Source: Gemmatimonadota bacterium
GTDB taxonomy: Bacteria > Gemmatimonadota > Gemmatimonadetes > Longimicrobiales > Gaopeijiaceae
Assembly: GCA_009841165.1 (NCBI GenBank)
Contig: VXMI01000157.1
Coordinates: 1 to 64,000, forward strand
Reading direction: 5' to 3'
Length of the DNA stretch: 64,000 nucleotides
How positions within the stretch are numbered: position 1 is the first letter of the stretch; every line of letters begins with the position of its first letter. The notes under the pieces were generated by a model. That model did not search any database, was not told where the DNA came from, and worked only from the letters and a program-made list of their open reading frames with translations. Shown here piece by piece: positions 45,533 to 59,583 of this stretch. A program made the position numbers and the translations under genes.

Positions 45533-47605
45533 CTAGTGCTTTGGGGGAAGAAAAGGGAGGGCCAGATCGATTACGGCCTCCGTCTGCGCCACCGGATCGA
45601 GGTGCGTCGTGTCTACGATTGTCGCCCCGTCGGCGCGGGTCAGAGGAGCGACCTCCCGGGTCGAATCGAGCAGGTCCCTTCCCTTCAACCGGGCGGCTTC
45701 GGCCTCGATTTCAGCGTTCCCCGGGTCGGTCCCGATGCGTTGAAGGATCCTCCGCCGGGCGCGCTCACGGACGTCGGCGTCCAGGTACACCTTGACGTGC
45801 GCGTCGGGAAACACGACGGTCGCCATGTCCCGGCCCTCGGCGACCAGGCCGGGCGGCCGGGCGGCGGCGCGCTGGAGGTCGAGCAGCTGGGCGCGCACGA
45901 GCGGAATCGCCGAGACGCGTGAGACCGAGGCGGTAACGCGGTCGGCGCGCAGTGCACGTTCCGGCACGCGGATTCCCCGGATCCGCACCCCCATGACGCC
46001 CGCGCTCCAGTCGAGCGCGACCTCCAGCGCCTCCAGTTCCTCCCGCGTCACCTGGTCCATTTCGTCGATTCGGCGCTCCGATTCGAGGAGCGCCCAGGTC
46101 ACGGCGCGGTAGATCGCACCGGAGTCCAGGTGCCGGAAACCGAGACGCGAGGCGGCGGCAGCGGCGGTGGTCGACTTCCCGGCTCCCGCCGAACCGTCGA
46201 TGGCCAGAACGACGCAGCGAGGCGCGGACCGCGGACCCTCGGCGCGCACCGCGGGCTTCCCCGCCACCGGCACCCGCACCCGCTCGAGCAGTTTCCAGAA
46301 GCCGGGGAAGCTGACGTCGGCCACCGCCGGGTCGTCCACCTCCAGGTCGCAATCGCGGGTCGCGCCCAGAACGCCAAAGGCCATCGCGATCCGGTGGTCG
46401 TGGAAGCACTCGACCGTGCCCGCCAGCGGCCGCTCCGTTCCCTCGATCGCCAGGCCGTCCGGATACTCCTCCACCCCGACCCCGATCCGTCGCAGGTTGA
46501 GGGCGAGCGCGGCCAGGCGGTCCGACTCCTTCACGCGGAGTTCGCGGGCCCCGGTGATTCGGGTCACGCCCCGGGCGCGGGCGGCCAGAACGGCCAGGAT
46601 CGGCACTTCGTCGATCATTCCCGGAATCTCCTCCTCGCCCACATCCACCGCCCGCACCGGACCCGTCCTCGCGCCGACCCGCAGGTCGCCCACCGGTTCG
46701 CCGGCCGCCAGCCGTCCGGGAAGCACCTCGACGCCGATCCCCATCCGCGCCAACACGGGCAGAAGCCCGGTACGGGTGGGATTCAGACCGACCGCGCGAA
46801 TCGTGAGCGGCGCGCGTCCGGGGGAGAGCGCCGCCCACGCCAGAAGGAACGCGGCCGAGGAGAAATCCCCCGGAACCTCCATGTCCAGCGGGGCGAGACT
46901 CGCGGGCGGATTGGGCAGGCGAACCGACCACGCCCCGTCCCTCCACCCCTCCGCCACTTCCACGCCCATCGCCTCGAGCATGCGCTCGCTATGGTCGCGG
47001 GACCGGCGCGGCTCCCGCACCTCCACCGGCACACCCGCGCCCAGCGCGGCGAGAAGAACCGCGCTCTTCACCTGCGCGCTGGCAACCTCGCCGCCGTGTC
47101 GGATCCCGGTCAGCGGGCCCCCGGTTACGCGCATGGGGAGCACTCCCGGCCGCCCGACGTACTCGACTCCGGCGCCCATCCGTCGCAGCGGCGCCGCGAT
47201 GCGCTCCATCGGCCTCCTCGACAGCGAGTCGTCTCCGGTCAGCACGACCGACAGGGGCTGCGCGGCCAGCGCTCCCGCGAGAAGCCGCGCCCCGGTGCCG
47301 CTGTTGCGGAGATCGAGCGGCGCGGCCGGCTGCCGCCACGCGCGCAGCCCCGGGCCGGCGATGCGCACGGGCTCGCTCGCCGGTCCGTCGGGTCCCAGGA
47401 TCTCGACACCAAGCGCCGCCAGGGCTCCGGCGGTTGAGAGAGGGTCCGCTCCCCGGGGCGCGGCCCCGATCCGGCTCTCGCCCTCGGCCAGCGCGCCGAG
47501 GATCAGGGCACGCTGGGCAATCGACTTGTCGCCGGGCACGCGGATCACGAGCCCCTCGCCGGAGCGGCGCTCCACGCCGGCGCTCAGCCTTCCGCCGACA
47601 CCCAT
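45533..47605 (-). CDS. aroA-cmk: Fused EPSP synthase and cytidylate kinase
   Basis: Predicted 690-aa fusion. Residues 1 to about 450 are EPSP synthase of the shikimate pathway: VIRVPGDKSIAQRALIL, RNSGTGARLLAG, RRPMERIAAPLRRMGA, GDFSSAAFLLAWA and TGARELRVKESDRLA. From about residue 470 a CMP kinase follows: VLAIDGSAGAGKST (P-loop), LDSGAIYRAVTWAL, GLVAEGRDMATVVFPDA and DLLDSTREVAPL. Such fusions are known in other bacteria. ATG 47605 overlaps the tyrA end by 22 bases; a start slightly inside is possible. It joins aromatic amino-acid synthesis to nucleotide supply, ahead of rpsA. Confidence 0.93.
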   Translation of the reverse strand: MGVGGRLSAGVERRSGEGLVIRVPGDKSIAQRALILGALAEGESRIGAAPRGADPLSTAGALAALGVEILGPDGPASEPVRIAGPGLRAWRQPAAPLDLRNSGTGARLLAGALAAQPLSVVLTGDDSLSRRPMERIAAPLRRMGAGVEYVGRPGVLPMRVTGGPLTGIRHGGEVASAQVKSAVLLAALGAGVPVEVREPRRSRDHSERMLEAMGVEVAEGWRDGAWSVRLPNPPASLAPLDMEVPGDFSSAAFLLAWAALSPGRAPLTIRAVGLNPTRTGLLPVLARMGIGVEVLPGRLAAGEPVGDLRVGARTGPVRAVDVGEEEIPGMIDEVPILAVLAARARGVTRITGARELRVKESDRLAALALNLRRIGVGVEEYPDGLAIEGTERPLAGTVECFHDHRIAMAFGVLGATRDCDLEVDDPAVADVSFPGFWKLLERVRVPVAGKPAVRAEGPRSAPRCVVLAIDGSAGAGKSTTAAAAASRLGFRHLDSGAIYRAVTWALLESERRIDEMDQVTREELEALEVALDWSAGVMGVRIRGIRVPERALRADRVTASVSRVSAIPLVRAQLLDLQRAAARPPGLVAEGRDMATVVFPDAHVKVYLDADVRERARRRILQRIGTDPGNAEIEAEAARLKGRDLLDSTREVAPLTRADGATIVDTTHLDPVAQTEAVIDLALPFLPPKH

Positions 47606-48438: not shown

Positions 48439-49342
48439 GATACCCGATCTCGATCTCGAGCCCGTCGCGCGCGACGACCGACGCGGGGAAGATCGCGCGG
48501 GCCTGCTCCTCCAGAACCTTCGGCGAGTCCGCGTAGCGCGCCGACAGATGGGTGAGGACGAGCCGCTTCACCTTCGCCCTCGCGGCCACCTGCGCGGCCT
48601 CCGCCGCCGTCGAATGCCGGGTCTCCCACGCCCGCTTCTTCTCCTCCTGGCCGAAGGTCGCGTCGTGGATCAGGAGATCGGCGGCCATCGCCATCTCGGC
48701 GGTGGTGCGTGCCGGCCGCGTGTCGCCCGTGTAGACCACCTTGCGCCCGGGACGGGGCGGCCCCACCACCTCGTCCGGCGTGATCGTGCGCCCGTCGACC
48801 TCGACCGCCTCGCCGCGGTGCAGCCGACCGAAAAGCGGCCCCTCGGGGACGCCCAGGCGCCGCGCCATCTCCACGTCGAAGCGGCCCAGCCGCAGCTCCT
48901 CGACCAGCGCGTATCCGAGGGCCGGCACCCCGTGGTCGACCTCGTAGGCGTGCATCGCCCAGCCGTCGAAACCGACCCTGTCGCCGTGCCGCAGACCGCG
49001 GACCTCCACCGGGAAGGCCAGCCGCTCGATCCCCATGCGCACGGCTGTCCGCAGCAGTTCGACCGTGGCTCCGGGGCCGTGGATCGTCATGGGCTCTTCC
49101 CTGCCCTGCAGTCCCATCGTCCGCAGCAGCCCGGGCAGTCCGAGAAAGTGATCGGCGTGGCCGTGGGTGATGAAGATGTGCGAAAAGGAGAATCCGCTGC
49201 CGAAGCGCATGATCTGGCGCTGGGTCCCCTCGCCGCAGTCGAGGAGGATGGAATCGCCCTCGCGTTGCACGGCGATGCCGGACACGTTGCGGCCAACCGT
49301 GGGTCGCGAGGCGGCGGTGCCCAGAAAACGGACTCGAATCAT
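48431..49342 (-). CDS. rnz: Ribonuclease Z
   Basis: Predicted 303-aa metallo-beta-lactamase-fold endonuclease that trims tRNA 3' ends. The zinc motif is FITHGHADHFLGLPGLL; LLDCGEGTQRQIM, VVYTGDTRPA, LLIHDATFG and LVLTHLSARY supply the other ligands and the flexible-arm neighbourhood. Length matches short RNase Z. It is the first gene of the rnz-tyrA-aroA-cmk-rpsA series and is divergent from the PLP-enzyme operon. Confidence 0.93.
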   Translation of the reverse strand: MIRVRFLGTAASRPTVGRNVSGIAVQREGDSILLDCGEGTQRQIMRFGSGFSFSHIFITHGHADHFLGLPGLLRTMGLQGREEPMTIHGPGATVELLRTAVRMGIERLAFPVEVRGLRHGDRVGFDGWAMHAYEVDHGVPALGYALVEELRLGRFDVEMARRLGVPEGPLFGRLHRGEAVEVDGRTITPDEVVGPPRPGRKVVYTGDTRPARTTAEMAMAADLLIHDATFGQEEKKRAWETRHSTAAEAAQVAARAKVKRLVLTHLSARYADSPKVLEEQARAIFPASVVARDGLEIEIGYRA

Positions 49343-49465
49343 GCGGATAAGGTAACGCGCGCGCGGAGCGGAGTACGCTCGTGCTTTGCGCGGCGGATCG
49401 CACGCGGATTACCTTGGAGCGGTTCCGACAAGCTCACCCCGCGCACGCGAGACGGCGGAGGACAG

Positions 49466-50797
49466 ATGAACTTCAGGGTCACGAACAACGGCGGGCGCCT
49501 CCATGCTCCCAATCGACGCGATTTCCTCGGATCGGCCGCGGCGGTGCTGGGCGCATCCCAGCTGCCGGCCTTCTCCTCGAACGCGACCGAAATCGCCCGC
49601 GACCTGAGCCGCCACCCCGGGACTCCGGCTGAAACCGCAAGCAACGAGGACTTCTGGGCCGAGGTCGCGCGCGCCTTCACCGTCGACCGCACGCTCGTCA
49701 ACCTCAACAACGGCGGGGTCAGCCCGTCCCCGAGCTTCGTGCAGGACGCCATGAAGCGGCACCTGGACTACTCGAACGAGGCGCCCACCTACACGATGTG
49801 GAAGATCCTCGAGCCCCAGCGCGAGGGCGTGCGGGCCCGCATGGCGCGGGAGTGGGGGGTCGACACCGAGGAAATCGCCTTCACGCGCAACGCCTCGGAG
49901 GGCCTCCAGACCGTGCAGTTCGGGTACGATCTGCAGAGGGGCGACGAGGTCCTCACCACCACGCAGGACTACGGCCGCATGCTCACGACCTTCCGGCAGC
50001 GCGAGCGCCGCGAAGGCATCGTCATGCGGCAGATCAAGGTGCCCGTCCCGGCCGAGGACGACGCCGAGGTGGTCCGCCGCTTCGAGGAGGCGATCACGCC
50101 GCGCACGAAGCTCATCCTCATGTGCCACATGATCAACCTGACCGGCCAGATCCTGCCGGTCCGCGAGATCGTCGCGATGGCCCGCAGGTACGACGTGCCC
50201 GTCATCGTCGACGGCGCCCACGCCATGGCGCACTTCCCCTTCAGCCTCGCCGAGCTGGAGTGCGACAACTACGCGACCAGCCTGCACAAGTGGCTCTTCG
50301 CCCCCCACGGAACCGGCCTGCTCTACGTGCGCCGCTCCGAGATCCCCAGCATCTGGCCCCTCATGGCCGCGCCCGACCGCATGGACGGCGACATCCGCAA
50401 ATACGAGGAGATAGGCACGCACCCGGCGGCCAACTACCTGGCCATAGGCGAGGCGCTGACCTTCCATCAGGGCATCGGCGCGGAACGCAAGGCCGAACGG
50501 CTGATCTATTTGAGGGATTACTGGGCGAACCGTCTGCTGGAGAACGACCGCGTCACCCTGAACACGAGCCGGAAACCCGGCTTCGCCTGCGGGATCGCCA
50601 ACGTGCATGTCGACGGCCTCGACACCGCGCAGCTCAGCAATTGGCTCTGGGACGAGCACCGCATCATCAACGTCCCGATCGGCCACGAGGAGTGCACGGG
50701 CCTCCGCATCTCGCCCAGCGTGTACACCACGCTCGAGGAGATCGACCGCTTCAGCGAAGCCATGGAGTGGGCGATCAAACACGGCCTGCCTGCGTGA
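49466..50797 (+). CDS. Tat-exported class V aminotransferase-fold PLP enzyme
   Basis: Predicted 443-aa PLP enzyme of the class V (isopenicillin N epimerase / cysteine desulfurase-like) group. The N-terminus carries a twin-arginine signal (APNRRDFLGSAAAVLGA), so it should be exported folded with its cofactor. The cofactor-binding region reads IVDGAHAMAHFPF, and the Schiff-base lysine is in YATSLHKWLFAPHGTGLLY. NLNNGGVSPSP and TRNASEGLQTVQFG are family motifs. ATG 49466 follows GGAGGACAG. It opens an operon of exported proteins; the stop shares a base with the peptidase start. Substrate unknown. Confidence 0.9.
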   Translation: MNFRVTNNGGRLHAPNRRDFLGSAAAVLGASQLPAFSSNATEIARDLSRHPGTPAETASNEDFWAEVARAFTVDRTLVNLNNGGVSPSPSFVQDAMKRHLDYSNEAPTYTMWKILEPQREGVRARMAREWGVDTEEIAFTRNASEGLQTVQFGYDLQRGDEVLTTTQDYGRMLTTFRQRERREGIVMRQIKVPVPAEDDAEVVRRFEEAITPRTKLILMCHMINLTGQILPVREIVAMARRYDVPVIVDGAHAMAHFPFSLAELECDNYATSLHKWLFAPHGTGLLYVRRSEIPSIWPLMAAPDRMDGDIRKYEEIGTHPAANYLAIGEALTFHQGIGAERKAERLIYLRDYWANRLLENDRVTLNTSRKPGFACGIANVHVDGLDTAQLSNWLWDEHRIINVPIGHEECTGLRISPSVYTTLEEIDRFSEAMEWAIKHGLPA

Positions 50798-52905
50798 TGC
50801 GCAGGCGGGGGGCCGCCGCGTTCGTCCTCCTCGCGGCGGCGCTGGCCGCGGCGGCCGCGCCGCTCCCAATCGCGGGGACCGCGTCCGCCCAGACGCGCGA
50901 AACCGACCTCGACGCGCTCGTCGGGTGGGCGTTCCCCTCCGGGCTCGTGGCGGCTGCCGAAGCGCCGGTCGTGGCCTGGGTCCGCAACGAGCGCGGTGCA
51001 CGCAACGTGTGGGTGGCCGAGGGTCCCGCGTGGGCGGGCCGCCGCGTCACCTCGTTCGCCGACGACGACGGTCAGGAGTTGGGAAGCCTCGCGATTTCCG
51101 CTGCGGGCACGACGATCGCGTTCGTGCGCGGGGGACCACCGAACCGGGCGGGCGAAATCCCCAACCCGGCGAGCATTGCGCTGGGCGTCGAGCGCGAGAT
51201 CTGGATCGTCGGGACCGGCGGGGGCGACGCGCGCAGGCTGGGACCCGGCCACTCGCCGCTCCTCACCGCCGACGGCACGCGGGTCGTCTACATCCAGGGC
51301 GGCGTGATCCGCCGGCGGCCCACCGGGGACCCGGCCGCGGCGCCCGAACCTCTCGCCGACCCCCGCGGGAGCCCCGGCGAACTCCGGCTCTCGCCCGGCG
51401 GGGACCTGCTGGCCTTCACCAGCCAGCTCGGCGACCACGCCTTCATCGGGGTGCTGGACCTCGCGGACGGGACTCTCCGCTACCTCGACCCCTCGCTCGA
51501 CATCGACGGCAACGCGGCGTGGTCGCCGGACGGGAGCGAGATCGCATTCGTGCGCATCCCGAACCGGCAGGGCAGCCTGCCCTTCTTTGCGGTGCGCGAG
51601 TCGCTCCCTTGGAGCATCCGGGCCGTCCGCCTTGCCGACGGCACCGCCCGCACCGTGTTCGCCGCCCCCGAGGGCACCGGCAGCGTGTTCCGCACCATCT
51701 CGGCCGCCAACAACATCTTCTGGGGTGCGGACGACCGCATCGCGTTTCCGTGGGAGGGCAACGGCTACACCAATCTCTACTCGGTGGATGCCCGGGGCGG
51801 CGGTGATCCCCGACCCATCGCCCGGGGCGAGTTCGAGGTCCAGTACGTGGCGCTGGCTCCGGGCGGCGAGGCGCTCGTCTTCTCCTCCAACCAGGGAGAC
51901 ATCGACCGCCAGCACCTCTGGTGGGGCCCGCTGGACGGGAGCGGCGCGCGGCAGCTGACCCCGGGAGCCGGGATCGAATGGCATCCGGCGCCGACCGTCG
52001 ACGGATCGGTGGTCTTCCTGGCGTCGTCGGGCACGGTCCCCGCGCACGCCGAGGTGCTGGCCGGAGACGAGCGCCGCTGGCTGGTCGAATCGGCACGCGA
52101 CGACGTCCCCGGCGGCCTCATCGACCCCGGGCAGGTGGTGTTCCCGTCGGCCGACGGCCTGGCGGTCCACGGGCAGCTCTTCCTGCCCGAAGGACCGCCA
52201 CCCCCCGGTGGCTGGCCCGGCCTGCTCTTCCTGCACGGGGGCTCCCGCCGTCAGATGCTCCTCGGCTTCCACCACCGCGACTACTACCACCACACCTATG
52301 CCTTCAGCCAGCACCTGGCCGCGCTCGGGTACGCCGTCCTCTCGGTCAACTACAGAAGCGGCATCGGCTACGGCATGGAGTTTCGCGAAGCGGAGCACTA
52401 CGGCGCCGACGGGGCCTCGGAAGTCAACGACGTGCTCGGCGCGGGCGTGTACCTGGCGTCGCGGGACGACGTGGACGGCGACCGCATCGGGCTCTGGGGC
52501 GGATCCTACGGTGGGTACCTGACCGCCCACGGTCTCGCGCAGGCGTCGCACCTGTTCAAGGCGGGAGTGGATATCCACGGCGTCCACGACTGGAACGTCG
52601 CGATCCGCAACTTCGTCCCGTCCTACGACCCCGCCGCCCGGCCCGACCTCGCCCGGCGCGCCTTCCAGTCCTCGCCGATGGCGTACGTCGACCGGTGGAC
52701 CTCGCCCGTCCTGCTCATCCACGGCGACGACGACCGCAACGTGCGCTTCAGCGAGTCGGTCGACCTGGCCGAAGTCCTGCGCCGCAAGGGGGTTCACGTC
52801 GAGATGCTCGTCCTGCCCGACGAGGTGCACGGCTTCCTCCTGCACCGCAGCTGGATGTCCGTGTTCCGCGCTGCGGAGGACTTCTTCGGCCGGTTCCTGA
52901 AGTGA
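50797..52905 (+). CDS. Exported S9-family (prolyl oligopeptidase-type) peptidase
   Basis: Predicted 702-aa serine peptidase. A signal peptide ends near ASAQ; TolB-like propeller blades (WSPDGSEIAFVRI, LRLSPGGDLLAFTS) fill residues 60-440; an alpha/beta-hydrolase domain follows. The catalytic triad is Ser570 in GGSYGGYL, Asp646 in HGDDDRNV and His678 in DEVHGF. It probably cleaves short peptides in the periplasm. The ATG overlaps the stop of the PLP enzyme (TGATG), and its own stop overlaps the next start (GTGA), so the genes are translationally coupled. Confidence 0.93.
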   Translation: MRRRGAAAFVLLAAALAAAAAPLPIAGTASAQTRETDLDALVGWAFPSGLVAAAEAPVVAWVRNERGARNVWVAEGPAWAGRRVTSFADDDGQELGSLAISAAGTTIAFVRGGPPNRAGEIPNPASIALGVEREIWIVGTGGGDARRLGPGHSPLLTADGTRVVYIQGGVIRRRPTGDPAAAPEPLADPRGSPGELRLSPGGDLLAFTSQLGDHAFIGVLDLADGTLRYLDPSLDIDGNAAWSPDGSEIAFVRIPNRQGSLPFFAVRESLPWSIRAVRLADGTARTVFAAPEGTGSVFRTISAANNIFWGADDRIAFPWEGNGYTNLYSVDARGGGDPRPIARGEFEVQYVALAPGGEALVFSSNQGDIDRQHLWWGPLDGSGARQLTPGAGIEWHPAPTVDGSVVFLASSGTVPAHAEVLAGDERRWLVESARDDVPGGLIDPGQVVFPSADGLAVHGQLFLPEGPPPPGGWPGLLFLHGGSRRQMLLGFHHRDYYHHTYAFSQHLAALGYAVLSVNYRSGIGYGMEFREAEHYGADGASEVNDVLGAGVYLASRDDVDGDRIGLWGGSYGGYLTAHGLAQASHLFKAGVDIHGVHDWNVAIRNFVPSYDPAARPDLARRAFQSSPMAYVDRWTSPVLLIHGDDDRNVRFSESVDLAEVLRRKGVHVEMLVLPDEVHGFLLHRSWMSVFRAAEDFFGRFLK

Positions 52906-53654
52906 GCCGCCCGGCCGCGAGCCTTCTGGCCATCGTGCTGACCGTCGGCACCGCGCCGCTTTCCGCACAGGATCCGGCGCCCGACAGCCTCCGGTCATTC
53001 ACCTTTCGCGGCAACGTCGTCGACTACGTGACCGAGGTACCGATCGAGGGCGCCTCCGTCGGGCTCGTCGAGGTGCGCCGGCTGGCGATAACCGATGCGC
53101 ACGGATACTTCGAGTTCGCCGATCTGGTTCCGGGCCGCTACACCATCTCCACGACCGGATTCGGGTACGAGCCCAACCGGGAGTCTTCGGATGTTCCCTT
53201 CGGCGCCGTCCTCGTCGTGCGGCTCAGCCCCGCGCCACTGGACGTCGCGGGTCTGGAGGTCGAGATCGCGCGCTTCGTCCGCCAGATCGAGATGCGGCGG
53301 CTCGCGACTCCGGTACCGTCGAGCGGGTTCGATCGGGAGACGCTGGACCGGACGGTCGATTATGATCTGGTTGAGTTCATCAGGGAGAGGACGACGCTGG
53401 ACATCGTCGAAGACTCGTTCGGCCTTCCGGTTGCCCGCTTCCGGAACAGGGTGAGCCGCCTGCGGGTATGTCTCGACGAGTTTCCGGTAGGCGCCGGCTT
53501 CCTGCAGAACCTGCAGCCACACCAGCTTGGGCGGGTCGAGGTCTTCGAGTCCGCGCGGATGGTGCGCTTGTACACGAACGAATTCCTCGAGGAGGCGGCA
53601 GAGCGCGGGTTCCAGCTACGGCCCGTCGATCTGACGTCGGCGAGGGGGTGCTGA
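52902..53654 (+). CDS. CarboxypepD-regulatory-like exported protein
   Basis: Predicted 250-aa protein. A signal peptide (SLLAIVLTVGTAPLSAQ) is followed by a carboxypeptidase-regulatory-like domain (RGNVVDYVTEVPIEGASVGL, DAHGYFEFADLVPGRYTIS) as found at the N-terminus of TonB-dependent receptors. It then shows a plug-like region (RRLATPVPSSGFDRETLDR, VEVFESARMVRLY) and stops before any barrel. Such plug-only proteins are common in Gemmatimonadota and have no known role. GTG 52902 overlaps the peptidase stop. A receptor that lost its barrel is possible, but the open reading frame and coupling look intact. Confidence 0.75.
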   Translation: MSRPAASLLAIVLTVGTAPLSAQDPAPDSLRSFTFRGNVVDYVTEVPIEGASVGLVEVRRLAITDAHGYFEFADLVPGRYTISTTGFGYEPNRESSDVPFGAVLVVRLSPAPLDVAGLEVEIARFVRQIEMRRLATPVPSSGFDRETLDRTVDYDLVEFIRERTTLDIVEDSFGLPVARFRNRVSRLRVCLDEFPVGAGFLQNLQPHQLGRVEVFESARMVRLYTNEFLEEAAERGFQLRPVDLTSARGC

Positions 53655-53656
53655 CT

Positions 53657-54280
53657 GTGGCCGCGAGAAACGGAAGACCCTGCCACCGCCTTGCGTGCAT
53701 CCTCTCGTTCGCGGGACTCCTGGCCTGCGCGTCGACCGGTCCAGGCTCTCCGGCCGCCGACAGGGCCGCCGCCCTCGCGGCCTTCGCGGGCAGCTGGGAG
53801 TTCGACGAGTCGGCGACCGCCCAGGCCGCAAACGTCCGCGGGGTGCGGCCGCAGGACCACATCCAGCAGCGCGCGTCCGATCTCGGAATGGAGATGATGC
53901 GGGAGCAGGGTGCCGGTGCCGACGCCGTCTCCGGCACGCCCGCCGGGCTGCGCCAGACCATGCTGATGGTCGGGATCACGCCGGAGAGACTGGCCTTCCA
54001 GCCGGGCGGCGGCGAGCTCGCGGTCGACTTCGACGCCGAAGGGCCGATCGCGCTTCCGCTCGATGGCGGCTGGAGCGAGGCGTCGGCCCCGCAGGGCCCG
54101 GTCGAGGCGCGGTTGCGCTGGCGCGACGACGGCTTCGCGATCGAACGCAGGATCCCCGGTGGCGGCACCATCCGCGATGCTTGCTACATCCTCGCGAGCG
54201 GCCACCTCCTGGTTACGCGCGAGATCGTCTGGAGGCGAGCCAGGCCGGTCGGACTCATCGTCTACCGGAAGTCGTCCTGA
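53657..54280 (+). CDS. Predicted lipoprotein closing the peptidase operon
   Basis: Predicted 207-aa protein, family not recognised. A lipobox LLAC follows a short hydrophobic segment (LACILSFAGLLAC). The mature part begins AGSWEFDES and is beta-rich, with GITPERLAFQPGGGELAVDF and VEARLRWRDDGFAIER, resembling small lipocalin-like proteins. GTG 53657 has GAGGGG about nine bases upstream; GTG 53648 is an alternative that overlaps the previous stop. It converges on the MscS gene. Confidence 0.65.
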   Translation: MAARNGRPCHRLACILSFAGLLACASTGPGSPAADRAAALAAFAGSWEFDESATAQAANVRGVRPQDHIQQRASDLGMEMMREQGAGADAVSGTPAGLRQTMLMVGITPERLAFQPGGGELAVDFDAEGPIALPLDGGWSEASAPQGPVEARLRWRDDGFAIERRIPGGGTIRDACYILASGHLLVTREIVWRRARPVGLIVYRKSS

Positions 54281-54323
54281 CGCGTCCGGGCGGTCGCACG
54301 CCCCGGCTTCGTCCTCGTCCCGC

Positions 54324-55586
54324 TCAGGACCCCCCCGCGATCACTCGCGCGAAGTCGCTACCCGCCGGCGACTGGTACGCTTTCAGCCCGAACTCCGGCA
54401 GTACCGCGATGAGGTGATCGAAGATGTCCGCCTGAAAGCCCTCATAGTTGGCCCACGCCGTGTCGTTCGAGAAGCAGTAGATCTCGATCGGCACCCCCTC
54501 GGGTCCCGGCGCCAGCTGGCGAGCCAGCAGCGTCATCTCCTTGTGCGTCTTCGGGTGGGCCTCCAGGTACTTCTGCACGTAGACGCGGAACGTCCCGAGG
54601 TTCGTAAGCCGGCGGATTTCGGGGATCACGCCGGGGTCACCTGCCTCCTTGGCCGCGTTGTAGCGCGCAATCGTGTCCAATGCATCCCGCATGTACCCCT
54701 GCAGCAGCTCGCGACGGGACAGCTCCTCGATTTCGTCGTCCCGCAGGAAGCGCACCGAGTTCATGTCGAGCCGCAGCGAGCGCTTGATCCGCCGGCCCCC
54801 CGACTCGCTCATCCCGCGCCAGTTCTTGAACGACTCGGTGATGAACTTGGACGTGGGGATCGTCGAGATCGTCTTGTCCCAGTTCTGGACCTTGACCGTG
54901 TGGAGCGCGATGTCGATGACCTCGCCGTCGCTCTGGGCCTGCGGGACGCTCAGCCAGTCCCCGATCCGGATCATGTCGTTGGACGCGATCTGCACGCTCG
55001 CGACCAGCGACAGGATCGTGTCGCGGAAGACCAGCATGAGCACCGCGGCAAGCGCCCCGAGCCCCGAGAGAAAGACCACGGGCGAGCGGCCGACCAGGAC
55101 CGACACGATCACCACCGCCGCCGCGAGCCAGGCTACCAGGCTCACCACCTGCAGGTAGCCCTTGATCGGCCGTGACTTCGCCTCGGCGTAGCTCTCCTGG
55201 TAGATGTCGTTCACGGAATCGAGCAAGGCCGCGAAGGCCCGCACCACGGCGAACGCGATGTAGGCCGCCGCCACGCGCCGCACGATCGTCCACACCGTGG
55301 AGAGCAGCTCCCCGGGGGCGTCCGCGACCCCCGCCGGCGTGACGCCCAGCGCGGGCCCGATCCCGAGATAGACCACCAGCGCCGGGACCACGTGGGCAAG
55401 CCGCTGCACCACTTTCCGCTCGGCGATGCGGTCGTCCCAGCTGGAACGCGTCCGCGCCGCCACACGCCCGAACACCCGCTGCAACAGGCCCGACGCGACC
55501 CGGTCGGCGATCAGGGCGGCCAGCGCGAGGACGCCCGTCCAGAGGAGGAGATTCGGCCAGTCGGCCGGAAGCGCGAACTGTGGCAT
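54324..55586 (-). CDS. MscS-type mechanosensitive channel (YbdG/MscM-like)
   Basis: Predicted 420-aa inner-membrane channel that opens under membrane tension. About five hydrophobic segments lie in residues 10-200. The pore helix and beta domain follow: VFLSGLGALAAVLMLVFRDTILSLVASVQIA is cut here by length but includes GALAAVLMLVFRDTI. IRIGDWLSVPQAQSDGEVID and STIPTSKFITESFKNW are the MscS core. An insertion-rich C-terminal domain makes it like E. coli YbdG. It is monocistronic, four bases after the end of the serine hydrolase gene on the same strand. Confidence 0.9.
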   Translation of the reverse strand: MPQFALPADWPNLLLWTGVLALAALIADRVASGLLQRVFGRVAARTRSSWDDRIAERKVVQRLAHVVPALVVYLGIGPALGVTPAGVADAPGELLSTVWTIVRRVAAAYIAFAVVRAFAALLDSVNDIYQESYAEAKSRPIKGYLQVVSLVAWLAAAVVIVSVLVGRSPVVFLSGLGALAAVLMLVFRDTILSLVASVQIASNDMIRIGDWLSVPQAQSDGEVIDIALHTVKVQNWDKTISTIPTSKFITESFKNWRGMSESGGRRIKRSLRLDMNSVRFLRDDEIEELSRRELLQGYMRDALDTIARYNAAKEAGDPGVIPEIRRLTNLGTFRVYVQKYLEAHPKTHKEMTLLARQLAPGPEGVPIEIYCFSNDTAWANYEGFQADIFDHLIAVLPEFGLKAYQSPAGSDFARVIAGGS

Positions 55587-57530: not shown

Positions 57531-58052
57531 CTATTCGATCCTTCTGTAGACCGCGTGCGATATCCGCTCCGTCCCGTCCGGCAGGGTGCGGCGGTACTCG
57601 TTGTTGATCGTGTTGCCGTCCTCGGAGAGCACGTTGACGATGACCTGGTAGACGTCGCCGTCTCGCGCGTTGAGGATGTGGTTGGTACGATCGTCGACGA
57701 CCTCGACCGCGGTCGTGGCGTTCTCCTGCCCCTCGACCGGCCGGAAGACCCCGTCGAACATTGTCGCGTAGCTCCACTCGGACGACACGCCCTCGGCGTT
57801 TGTGGACGCGACCGTGATCTTCATCCCGCCGTCGCCCCAGGGCTCGTAGGTCATGATGTTGCTGGCGGGCGGCGGCGCGTCGGACTCCAGGCGCCAGACG
57901 CCGAAACGCGGGTTGGAGGGCGCTTCGGCCGCGGACTCGTCCGTCATGGCCGCGTCGCTCTGCCCGCCCTCTTCAGCGGCGGGAGCGCAGGCGAAGGTCA
58001 CGCCGGTCGCAACCATCGCGAGGGCAAGGATCGTCGAAGTGTGGGTGCGCAT
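57531..58052 (-). CDS. Predicted lipoprotein
   Basis: Predicted 173-aa protein of unknown family. A signal peptide reaches TFACAP, a lipobox-like Cys, followed by an acidic linker (EEGGQSDAAMTDESAAEAPS). The mature domain starts FGVWRLESDAPPPASNIMTY and has WSYATMFDGVFRPV and a C-terminal strand set, resembling small calycin-like domains that read YEPWGDGG. ATG 58052 follows AGGAGTTCAGGA. It is divergent from the three-repeat protein and convergent with apaG. Confidence 0.65.
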   Translation of the reverse strand: MRTHTSTILALAMVATGVTFACAPAAEEGGQSDAAMTDESAAEAPSNPRFGVWRLESDAPPPASNIMTYEPWGDGGMKITVASTNAEGVSSEWSYATMFDGVFRPVEGQENATTAVEVVDDRTNHILNARDGDVYQVIVNVLSEDGNTINNEYRRTLPDGTERISHAVYRRIE

Positions 58053-58191
58053 TCCTGAACTCCTGTCGGTGGAGGGGCCGATGCAGACAAGCGGGCAATC
58101 TAGAGGGGCGGAACGGCCTCCGAAACCGGACGGGACCCTGCGGGGTAGGAGGGAGAAGCCTCGTCCGCCCGCCCCGAACCCGTTTGCGTCC

Positions 58192-59583
58192 ATGCTACCT
58201 CCCCTTCGCCTGCTCCTTGCCCTCGGCGTTGCGTGCGCCGCATTCCCACCCGCCGCGCCGTCCAACCTCCACGCCCAGTCCGCCGACCGGATTTGGGGAC
58301 GCGTCCTCACCACCGAGGGCGACGAGTACGAGGGATTCCTCGAGTTCAGCCGGGGCCAGAGCGCGGCCAGCTGGGCCGACGTGCTGGTGGGCAGCCGCGA
58401 GATATCCGACGACAACTACAACGCCTGGCTCCTGGCCGTGCACGACGGGCGGCCCGCGGTCCGCACCGTGGATGTAAGGGGCTATCGGGTTTCGTGGGAG
58501 GAGCGGTATCGGGACTTCGCGACCGAGACCCGCACCGGCATCCGCTTCGGGCACCTCGCCGCGCTGGCGCGGGACGACGACGGCGGGATCGAGGTAGTGC
58601 AGCGGGGCGCGGGGGACGCGGTGACGGTCGACGTCCCGGGCTCTCGGACGGGGGGTGTGTCCGTGTCGCCCGGCGGCGTGCGCACCACGTCGACGACCGG
58701 GGGGCTGAGGGCGCGCGTCACCGTCGACACCCCCGGCGAGGAGCAGGTCGTGGTCTCCGGACGCGTCATCGAGCGAATCGAATTCGGTGCCGCCCGGCCC
58801 GGCGCCGCACCCGCGGCCACTCGGGTCCACGGTTCGGTCGAAGATCGGTTCGGGCGCACCTTCACGGGGTTCATCTCCTGGAGCGGCGCTCCGGTCCTGC
58901 AGTCGGACCGGTTCCTCGGGCGGGACGACGACGACCTCAGGCGCTTCCCGTTCGCCGAGATCAGCGTGGTGGAATCGCGCTTCGGCGGAGCATGGGTGAC
59001 GCTGGCATCCGGCGAGGGATTCGACCTCTACCGCCCGCTCGGCTCGCGCTACCGGCAGTCCGACATCCGCTGGTACCGGCGGACGATCCGCATCGCCGAT
59101 CCCGGGCTCGGCACGGTCGAGGTGGGGTGGGACGACCTGCACGCGCTTCGGTTGCACCCCCCTTCCGCCGGGGTGGGGTATGACGACTTCGGCGAAACCG
59201 GCCCCCTGTACGGGGTGGTCACGAGCCGGTCCGGCGAAGAGTTCGAGGGCTGGATCCGGTGGGACGCCGACGAGGAGTGGACGTGGGATCAACTGAACGG
59301 GACATCGGACAACGTGGAGTTCGACGTGGAGTTCGGGAGGATCCGGCAGATCGTGCAATCCGACGACGGGCACGTCCGGATCACACTGCTGGATGGCCGC
59401 AACTACGAGCTTTCCGACTCGAACGACGTGGGCGGGGACAACTGGGGAATCTTCGTGTTTCCGAACGCGGGCCCCCTGGAACGCGAGGGAGTCGGGCAGC
59501 AGGGGACCGACTGGCACCATATCGCGTGGGAGGACTTTGGCGAGGCGCGCTTCAGGGCGGCGCCGGAAGGTGCGGGCTCGTGA
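58192..59583 (+). CDS. Exported protein with three internal repeats
   Basis: Predicted 463-aa protein with no recognised family. A signal peptide ends near HAQ (residue 29). Three copies of a short beta motif, roughly G-x-V-x(4)-G-x-x-F/Y-x-G-F/W-I/L-x-W/F, are visible: GRVLTTEGDEYEGFLEF (36-52), HGSVEDRFGRTFTGFISW (213-230) and YGVVTSRSGEEFEGWIRW (340-357). After each copy comes a strand pair and, for copies 2 and 3, a downstream D/E-rich stretch followed by an aromatic-rich stretch. The stop overlaps the start of a large outer-membrane protein (GTGA), so they are probably partners. The ATG has no close ribosome site. Confidence 0.75.
   Translation: MLPPLRLLLALGVACAAFPPAAPSNLHAQSADRIWGRVLTTEGDEYEGFLEFSRGQSAASWADVLVGSREISDDNYNAWLLAVHDGRPAVRTVDVRGYRVSWEERYRDFATETRTGIRFGHLAALARDDDGGIEVVQRGAGDAVTVDVPGSRTGGVSVSPGGVRTTSTTGGLRARVTVDTPGEEQVVVSGRVIERIEFGAARPGAAPAATRVHGSVEDRFGRTFTGFISWSGAPVLQSDRFLGRDDDDLRRFPFAEISVVESRFGGAWVTLASGEGFDLYRPLGSRYRQSDIRWYRRTIRIADPGLGTVEVGWDDLHALRLHPPSAGVGYDDFGETGPLYGVVTSRSGEEFEGWIRWDADEEWTWDQLNGTSDNVEFDVEFGRIRQIVQSDDGHVRITLLDGRNYELSDSNDVGGDNWGIFVFPNAGPLEREGVGQQGTDWHHIAWEDFGEARFRAAPEGAGS

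Follow-up and report, generated by a model that had tools for sequence, protein, structure and literature searches.

The 64,000-nucleotide stretch of Gemmatimonadota bacterium DNA considered here (contig VXMI01000157.1, positions 1 to 64,000; hereafter the window) carries a gene for a pyridoxal 5'-phosphate (PLP)-dependent enzyme of class V, fold type I (49466-50797, + strand, 443 residues), which is the conserved entity at its locus. A sequence-only reading had placed this gene at the head of an operon in which it is followed by an S9 peptidase, a plug-like protein and a lipoprotein. The four genes do lie head to tail at 49466-54280, the first three overlapping at their start and stop codons, with coordinates and families as claimed, but what is conserved is the PLP enzyme and not the four-gene set. 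We propose, tentatively and with somewhat less than even confidence, that this enzyme is exported through the twin-arginine translocation (Tat) pathway, is fed in this lineage by the S9 peptidase, and releases an enamine or imine in the cell envelope. The proposal is built on the gene structure, a conserved twin-arginine signal, the fold, the PLP-site residues and the recurrent linkage to S9 and exported RidA genes, and from these we infer export, co-transcription, substrate, reaction and the order of the steps.

A twin-arginine motif, NRRDFLG, occupies residues 16-22 of the PLP enzyme (49511-49531, + strand) and is conserved in an alignment of 39 rows, comprising the window enzyme (P0001) and 38 of 80 named loci, chosen for spread. 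Because R17 and R18 (38/38 readable rows) and F20 (39/39) are kept amid an otherwise variable N-terminus, the remainder of residues 16-50 being free to change, the motif is, as judged from the alignment, under selection. The arginine pair is conserved in orthologues across phyla and TatC is encoded in the window genome; on both counts the enzyme is probably exported by Tat, in agreement with the signal that the sequence-only reading had assigned to it. The described Tat-exported precedent of the same fold is PvdN, a periplasmic pyoverdine-tailoring PLP enzyme of Pseudomonas, whose export, according to a review, depends on PLP binding in the cytoplasm (PMC6206403), and by this precedent the window enzyme would likewise be exported with its PLP bound.

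The enzyme matches PF00266 (E 2e-43, 149.1 bits against a gathering score of 21.5). For its predicted structure (pLDDT 80.3, pTM 0.80) the closest PDB folds, in 50 rows of a fold search, are PvdN (5i90/5hh9; Z 36.7, root-mean-square deviation (rmsd) 2.9 over 354 residues, 25% identity) and C-DES, an L-cysteine/L-cystine C-S lyase (1elq, 1n31; Z 36.1, rmsd 2.8 over 350, 23% identity), which is effectively a tie; the desulfurases SufS/CsdA, with the class V fold in common, stand at Z about 33-35. Ranked by sequence, PvdN is the closest solved structure, followed by SufS-type desulfurases and C-DES. The best NCBIfam model is that of PvdN (NF051467, 157.7 bits), which also matches 39/39 relatives; the window enzyme misses its equivalog cutoff (650 bits), as it does the cutoffs of the SufS/CsdA desulfurase model (126.1 bits, cutoff 475) and of the EgtE C-S lyase model TIGR04343 (78 bits, cutoff 400). 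C-DES is a cyanobacterial enzyme and we know of no export of it; its chemistry would suit the RidA partners described below, though likeness of fold is no demonstration of function.

Within the 39 rows K275, D249, H252, Y169, N224 and R414 are invariant. K275 (in SLHKWL; 50288-50290, + strand) aligns to the HKW of PvdN and is, by homology, the presumed Schiff-base lysine; D249 corresponds to the PLP-ring Asp that, with this lysine, characterises the PF00266 superfamily. R414 (50705-50707, + strand; 39/39 rows) aligns to a PvdN arginine and presumably binds the alpha-carboxylate, as in class V enzymes generally, suggesting that the carboxylate of the substrate is free. The two enzymes also align at the His that follows the Asp, and a PvdN His is aligned to Tyr169 and a PvdN Ser to Asn224. 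The loop position C410 is Cys in 10 rows, Phe in 28 and another residue in one, and since this cysteine is not conserved, a cysteine desulfurase identity was rejected; the export signal further separates the family from SufS/CsdA. Two other candidates were set aside: an anti-phage reading, as the PADLOC matches to SspA/DndA look like general class V similarity, and a residue comparison with LmbF/CcbF (PMC11794154) bearing on PvdN-type versus lyase-type chemistry, the register of which was too uncertain.

These likenesses bring in the alternative that the window enzyme is a PvdN-like tailoring enzyme, performing the oxidative decarboxylation of a glutamyl-type residue in a secreted peptide or siderophore. 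PvdN shares the fold and the Tat signal and is of similar length; it is the best match by NCBIfam model, by PDB sequence and by fold, and is itself exported by Tat (PMC6206403), but the 157.7 bits scored fall far under the equivalog cutoff. Unlike PvdN, moreover, the window enzyme is encoded outside any pyoverdine or other biosynthetic cluster, its conserved neighbours being RpsA, AroA-Cmk, prephenate dehydrogenase, RNase Z and MscS. Its breadth within the phylum, given below, is more in keeping with housekeeping or catabolism than with a siderophore, and an amide formation that retains nitrogen would not need RidA. On balance we consider this alternative unlikely.

An orthologue of the PLP enzyme was found in 114/160 Gemmatimonadota genomes sampled (E<=1e-130), including 33/40 in the family of the window (f1), and, with identities of 77-98%, in every one of the 22 genus relatives. 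Named genomes, when scanned, gave at least 593 matching stretches, at least 572 of them relatives, and the best 80 of these are distributed over Gemmatimonadota, Planctomycetota, KSB1, Neomarinimicrobiota, Rhodothermales/Bacteroidota, Acidobacteria, Caldithrix and a few Proteobacteria, the taxa being those of the record titles, which for metagenome-assembled genomes (MAGs) can be wrong. Three loci titled Gammaproteobacteria (L116, L118 and L121; 72-74% identity) have a Gemmatimonadota-like PLP/RNase Z neighbourhood and probably come from misbinned MAGs. Exported PLP enzymes of this group are thus not uncommon, contrary to what had been supposed. As to the further claim that the pathway has not been described, no description of the family was found in the literature searched (subscription journals lay outside its coverage), and an exported enzyme of this fold has a precedent in PvdN (PMC6206403). 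Besides P0001, the window genome encodes three or more class V PLP paralogues that have RR motifs, at G000:C58 (L093/L201), C199 (L003/L094) and C24 (L004/L095). That at C199 has a lipobox-like Cys besides its RR motif; the nearest PDB structures are PvdN for C58 and SufS-type enzymes for C199 and C24, the last being also close to C-DES.

The nature of the reaction is suggested by neighbouring genes in other phyla. Rid proteins hydrolyse imines and enamines formed by PLP enzymes (PMC4433059; also PMC5636819, PMC12172467), and their genes cluster with those of 2-aminoacrylate-forming PLP enzymes (PMC4433059); in chitin oxidation, a PLP deaminase and a Rid protein whose role is not known are reported as a pair (PMC9537276). 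At 12 distinct loci in phyla other than Gemmatimonadota the PLP orthologue has an exported RidA-family protein encoded next to it: directly after the PLP gene at nine, about 1.1 kilobases (kb) on at L204, and 265-312 nucleotides (nt) upstream at L158 and L160. At L152, L153, L162, L168 and L175 the two genes overlap by 4 nt. Of the 80 named PLP loci, seven have a linked RidA. In the phylum of L153 the PLP gene occurs in 5/61 genomes, with Rid immediately after it in three (L203, which is L153, L205 and L206), the remaining two being L204 and L207, which is cut by a contig end. In the phylum of L152 it occurs in 17/59 genomes, at 18 places, and is followed by Rid at four of these (L229, which is L152, L230, which is L175, L232 and L233) and by an S9 gene at three.

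The N-termini of the 12 linked Rid proteins are of lipobox type in ten cases, while L158 has TRRDFLG and L160, in the printed sequence, the FLG part only. Both Rid proteins run against PF01042 matched it (L153 130.5 and L201 71.9 bits, gathering score 27.3), and the PAR motif with the catalytic Arg is as expected in L201 and in 11/12 of the orthologue-linked proteins, the pattern having matched an N-terminal string in L158. In the window genome itself the Tat-type paralogue at G000:C58 (33% identity to P0001) and the gene of a Rid protein with a lipobox-type N-terminus, L201, are arranged tail to tail. Rid matches with secretion-like N-termini were seen there at L200, L201 and L202 (G000:C44, C58 and C68), and L202 looks like a triple Rid. 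The adjacency is that of the described Rid-PLP clusters (PMC4433059), with the difference that export signals are present here on the PLP enzyme and the Rid protein alike; the main text of that paper contains neither of the terms 'periplasm' and 'signal peptide'. The presence of exported RidA neighbours would imply a PLP reaction that releases an imine or enamine.

The RidA neighbours also favour such a release in the envelope over an epimerase. The sequence-only reading had offered a periplasmic pathway that either processes peptides or epimerises amino acids; processing remains plausible, whereas epimerisation is left unsupported by the PvdN and C-DES folds and by the RidA genes. An enzyme that epimerises or racemises amino acids after export, on the model of isopenicillin N epimerase, would have the same broad class V fold, and the envelope is a place where D-amino acids find use, but neither the 25 best NCBIfam matches nor the PDB matches listed include an epimerase, and RidA has no evident role in racemisation, such that this is the least probable of the explanations considered. 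Similarly, an exported transaminase would require a keto-acid partner in the periplasm; a Tat-exported periplasmic PLP transaminase, PtaA, does exist (PMC6206403), but by fold and sequence the window enzyme ranks with PvdN, C-DES and the SufS-type enzymes, and transaminases release no imines, which makes a PtaA-like function very improbable. That the 50 fold-search rows contain neither epimerase nor transaminase is no proof of a different fold.

The S9 peptidase (prolyl-oligopeptidase family; 50797-52905, + strand, 702 residues) begins within the stop codon of the PLP gene, the two sharing one nucleotide in TGATG (50795-50799, + strand). It matches PF00326 (E 4e-39, 134.7 bits against a gathering score of 22.6) together with PD40 and DPPIV_N, has the motifs GGSYGG at 568, HGDDD at 642 and DEVHG at 675, and bears a predicted N-terminal secretion signal. 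In its catalytic domain, Ser/Asp/His motifs and signal it resembles the Dpp4/Dpp5-type S9 exopeptidases (5yp1, NF053518), scoring 78.9 bits with the Dpp5 model NF053518, the cutoff of which is 900. When linkage in the 160-genome sample is taken as a position at most 2 kb downstream on the same strand, with positions compared by eye, an S9 gene like that of the window (P0002) accompanies the PLP gene in 10/33 PLP-bearing f1 genomes (G000, G001, G002, G006, G017, G102, G109, G160, G173 and G180) and in 0/81 of the others. Elsewhere, homologues at 46-57% identity lie away from the PLP gene. At the 80 named loci S9 is linked at 16, eight in or near the genus and eight at 49-54% identity.

Of the 47 S9 rows placed in a tree, the 23 that are PLP-linked all fall inside one set of 24 (support 98/98), the sole non-linked member being G142:C292, on a 5.9-kb contig; three of these 23 repeat named loci (L138/L224, L139/L226 and L144/L225), and the members outside the genus are mostly about 50% identical to the window peptidase. 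The linkage therefore looks to have been inherited once in the family and often lost, and the PLP-S9 pair is older than the four-gene set, but optional. The coupling of the two genes thus stands in part: one S9 clade is kept beside the PLP gene in f1, with a second S9 pairing elsewhere, but not as members of a four-gene unit. In another phylum this second type comes directly after the PLP gene (L240-L242; spacing -4, -4 and +14 nt); it was checked on L247 and L249 (PF00326 E 1e-59) and, as its match to P0002 is partial, at about 24-26%, it looks like a separate recruitment. At L176 an M28 peptidase lies 24 nt after the PLP gene, and in Rhodothermales the S9 genes near the PLP gene are convergent and were left out of the linkage count.

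In the proposed mechanism the PLP enzyme would fold and bind PLP in the cytoplasm before its export by Tat, and once in the cell envelope would act on a substrate whose alpha-amino and alpha-carboxyl groups are both free. This substrate is probably cut out of peptides, in this lineage, by the adjoining S9 peptidase, whose part as the source of substrate is suggested by the linkage. The PLP enzyme would then break a bond at C-alpha or C-beta, either by beta-elimination, as in a C-S lyase, or by an O2-dependent deamination or decarboxylation, as in PvdN-type enzymes, PvdN being listed among the O2-using PLP enzymes (PMC7497351). The reactive enamine or imine so released would be hydrolysed by envelope RidA or by water. 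A broader reading, possible but less probable than this narrower one, would envisage phylum-spanning Tat-exported PLP lyases or oxidases, fed by dedicated exported peptidases and detoxified by dedicated exported RidA; the partnership of PLP enzyme and Rid, described until now within cells, would here exist in an extracytoplasmic form.

Several observations weigh against the proposal. No RidA gene occurs at the window locus or, among the named loci titled Gemmatimonadota, at a distance of up to 2.5 kb from the orthologue, and in the phylum of L152 RidA follows the PLP gene in only 4/18 places. Neither S9 nor RidA is linked at 57/80 named loci, some of which are short of downstream sequence. A linked S9 is missing in 104/114 PLP-bearing genomes of the phylum sample and is therefore not required, and S9 peptidases are so numerous (the window genome gave about 100 candidates at first look) that chance adjacency is not negligible. 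CopC-CopD, the commonest neighbour of the PLP gene in the genus, is left unexplained. The locus counts, furthermore, are not independent events, since the loci are related by descent. The same scarcity and abundance of S9 genes would suit the alternative that the two genes adjoin without a joint function, short overlaps being common in compact genomes, as would the position of CopC-CopD between PLP and S9 in 6/10 S9-bearing genus relatives. Yet the linkage is kept in a single S9 clade at the divergence noted above, and a separate S9 pairing exists in another phylum; we regard fortuitous adjacency as somewhat unlikely.

The two remaining genes of the locus encode a CarboxypepD_reg/plug-like protein (gene 3; 52902-53654, + strand, 250 residues, GTG start), the start of which overlaps the S9 stop by 4 nt (GTGA, 52902-52905, + strand), and a lipoprotein (gene 4; 53657-54280, + strand, 207 residues, GTG start) starting 2 nt past the end of gene 3. 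The order PLP-S9-gene 3-gene 4 is uninterrupted in only 4/23 genus genomes (G001, G002, G014 and the window), and as a conserved unit the set was rejected. Instead, CopC-CopD (PF04234 + PF05425; for example L070:3994-5400) directly follows the PLP gene in 18/22 genus relatives; it is not at the locus in G001, G002, G009, G014 or the window, whose genome carries no more than a distant CopC/CopD pair at another place. An S9 orthologue is at the locus in 10/22 (G001, G002, G004, G006, G009, G010, G014, G016, G017 and G019, where it is split by contig ends). All four genes are present with CopC-CopD inserted in G004, G006, G016 and G017, and likewise in G019 over two contigs; G010 has no match to gene 3 and G009 none to genes 3 and 4, while gene 3 is found without S9 in G008, G012 and G022. 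RNase Z lies upstream in 22/22 relatives and MscS downstream wherever the fetched sequence extends that far, the content of the PLP-to-MscS interval being variable, so that the tight packing in the window is one among several arrangements.

Genes 3 and 4 are optional neighbours. Gene 3 matches PF13620 (E 7e-11) and PF13715, and resembles the N-terminal part of TonB-dependent receptors with no barrel; in a homologue (L087:8498-9277), a match to Plug falls short of the threshold (PF07715 E 0.007). Gene 4 has no Pfam match, an invariant lipobox Cys24 in 7/7 aligned rows, and a model (pLDDT 78.7) with a weakly calycin-like (FABP/lipocalin-like) fold (Foldseek best E 6e-5, TMq 0.41, rmsd 6.3). The presence of the PLP orthologue in 22/22 and of S9 in 10/22 genus relatives indicates that the open reading frames are real genes. 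A scan of 49200-54500 for promoters and terminators gave nothing above shuffles (0 promoter-like and 1 terminator-like, against a shuffle mean of 1.5). Upstream of the PLP gene, all on the - strand, are RNase Z, prephenate dehydrogenase, an AroA-cytidylate kinase (AroA-Cmk) fusion (45533-47605, 690 residues, PF00275 + PF02224) and RpsA, named by eye, and downstream of gene 4 are MscS (-) and a beta-lactamase-fold protein (-). A small secreted-looking protein (57531-58415, - strand; cluster c8) is kept near the same position within the genus.

At the 80 named loci CopC-CopD is linked at 14 and a thioredoxin-like gene at eight, and MsrP, which we take from its sequence features to be the periplasmic methionine-sulfoxide reductase, lies within 8 kb of the PLP gene at 11. 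The thioredoxin-like protein (Thioredoxin_9 family, checked on L147) follows PLP or PLP-S9 at L131, L134, L138, L139, L141, L144, L146 and L147; MsrP is near the PLP gene in Gemmatimonadota at L125, L134, L138, L139, L141 and L144, and is a divergent neighbour at L252, in another phylum. Taken together, these three kinds of neighbour give a hint of redox chemistry involving metal or sulfur. In G088 (genus g54) a GcvT-like aminomethyltransferase gene (L186:7898-9064) overlaps the PLP stop by 4 nt.

PLP chemistry is normally cytoplasmic, and the exported precedents found in print, PvdN and PtaA, are tailoring enzymes of one siderophore (PMC6206403). A widespread and apparently exported PLP enzyme, present in most genomes of the phylum and in several other phyla, would point to an as yet unnamed amino-acid reaction of the envelope, and its exported RidA neighbours make a specific prediction about the product of the enzyme.

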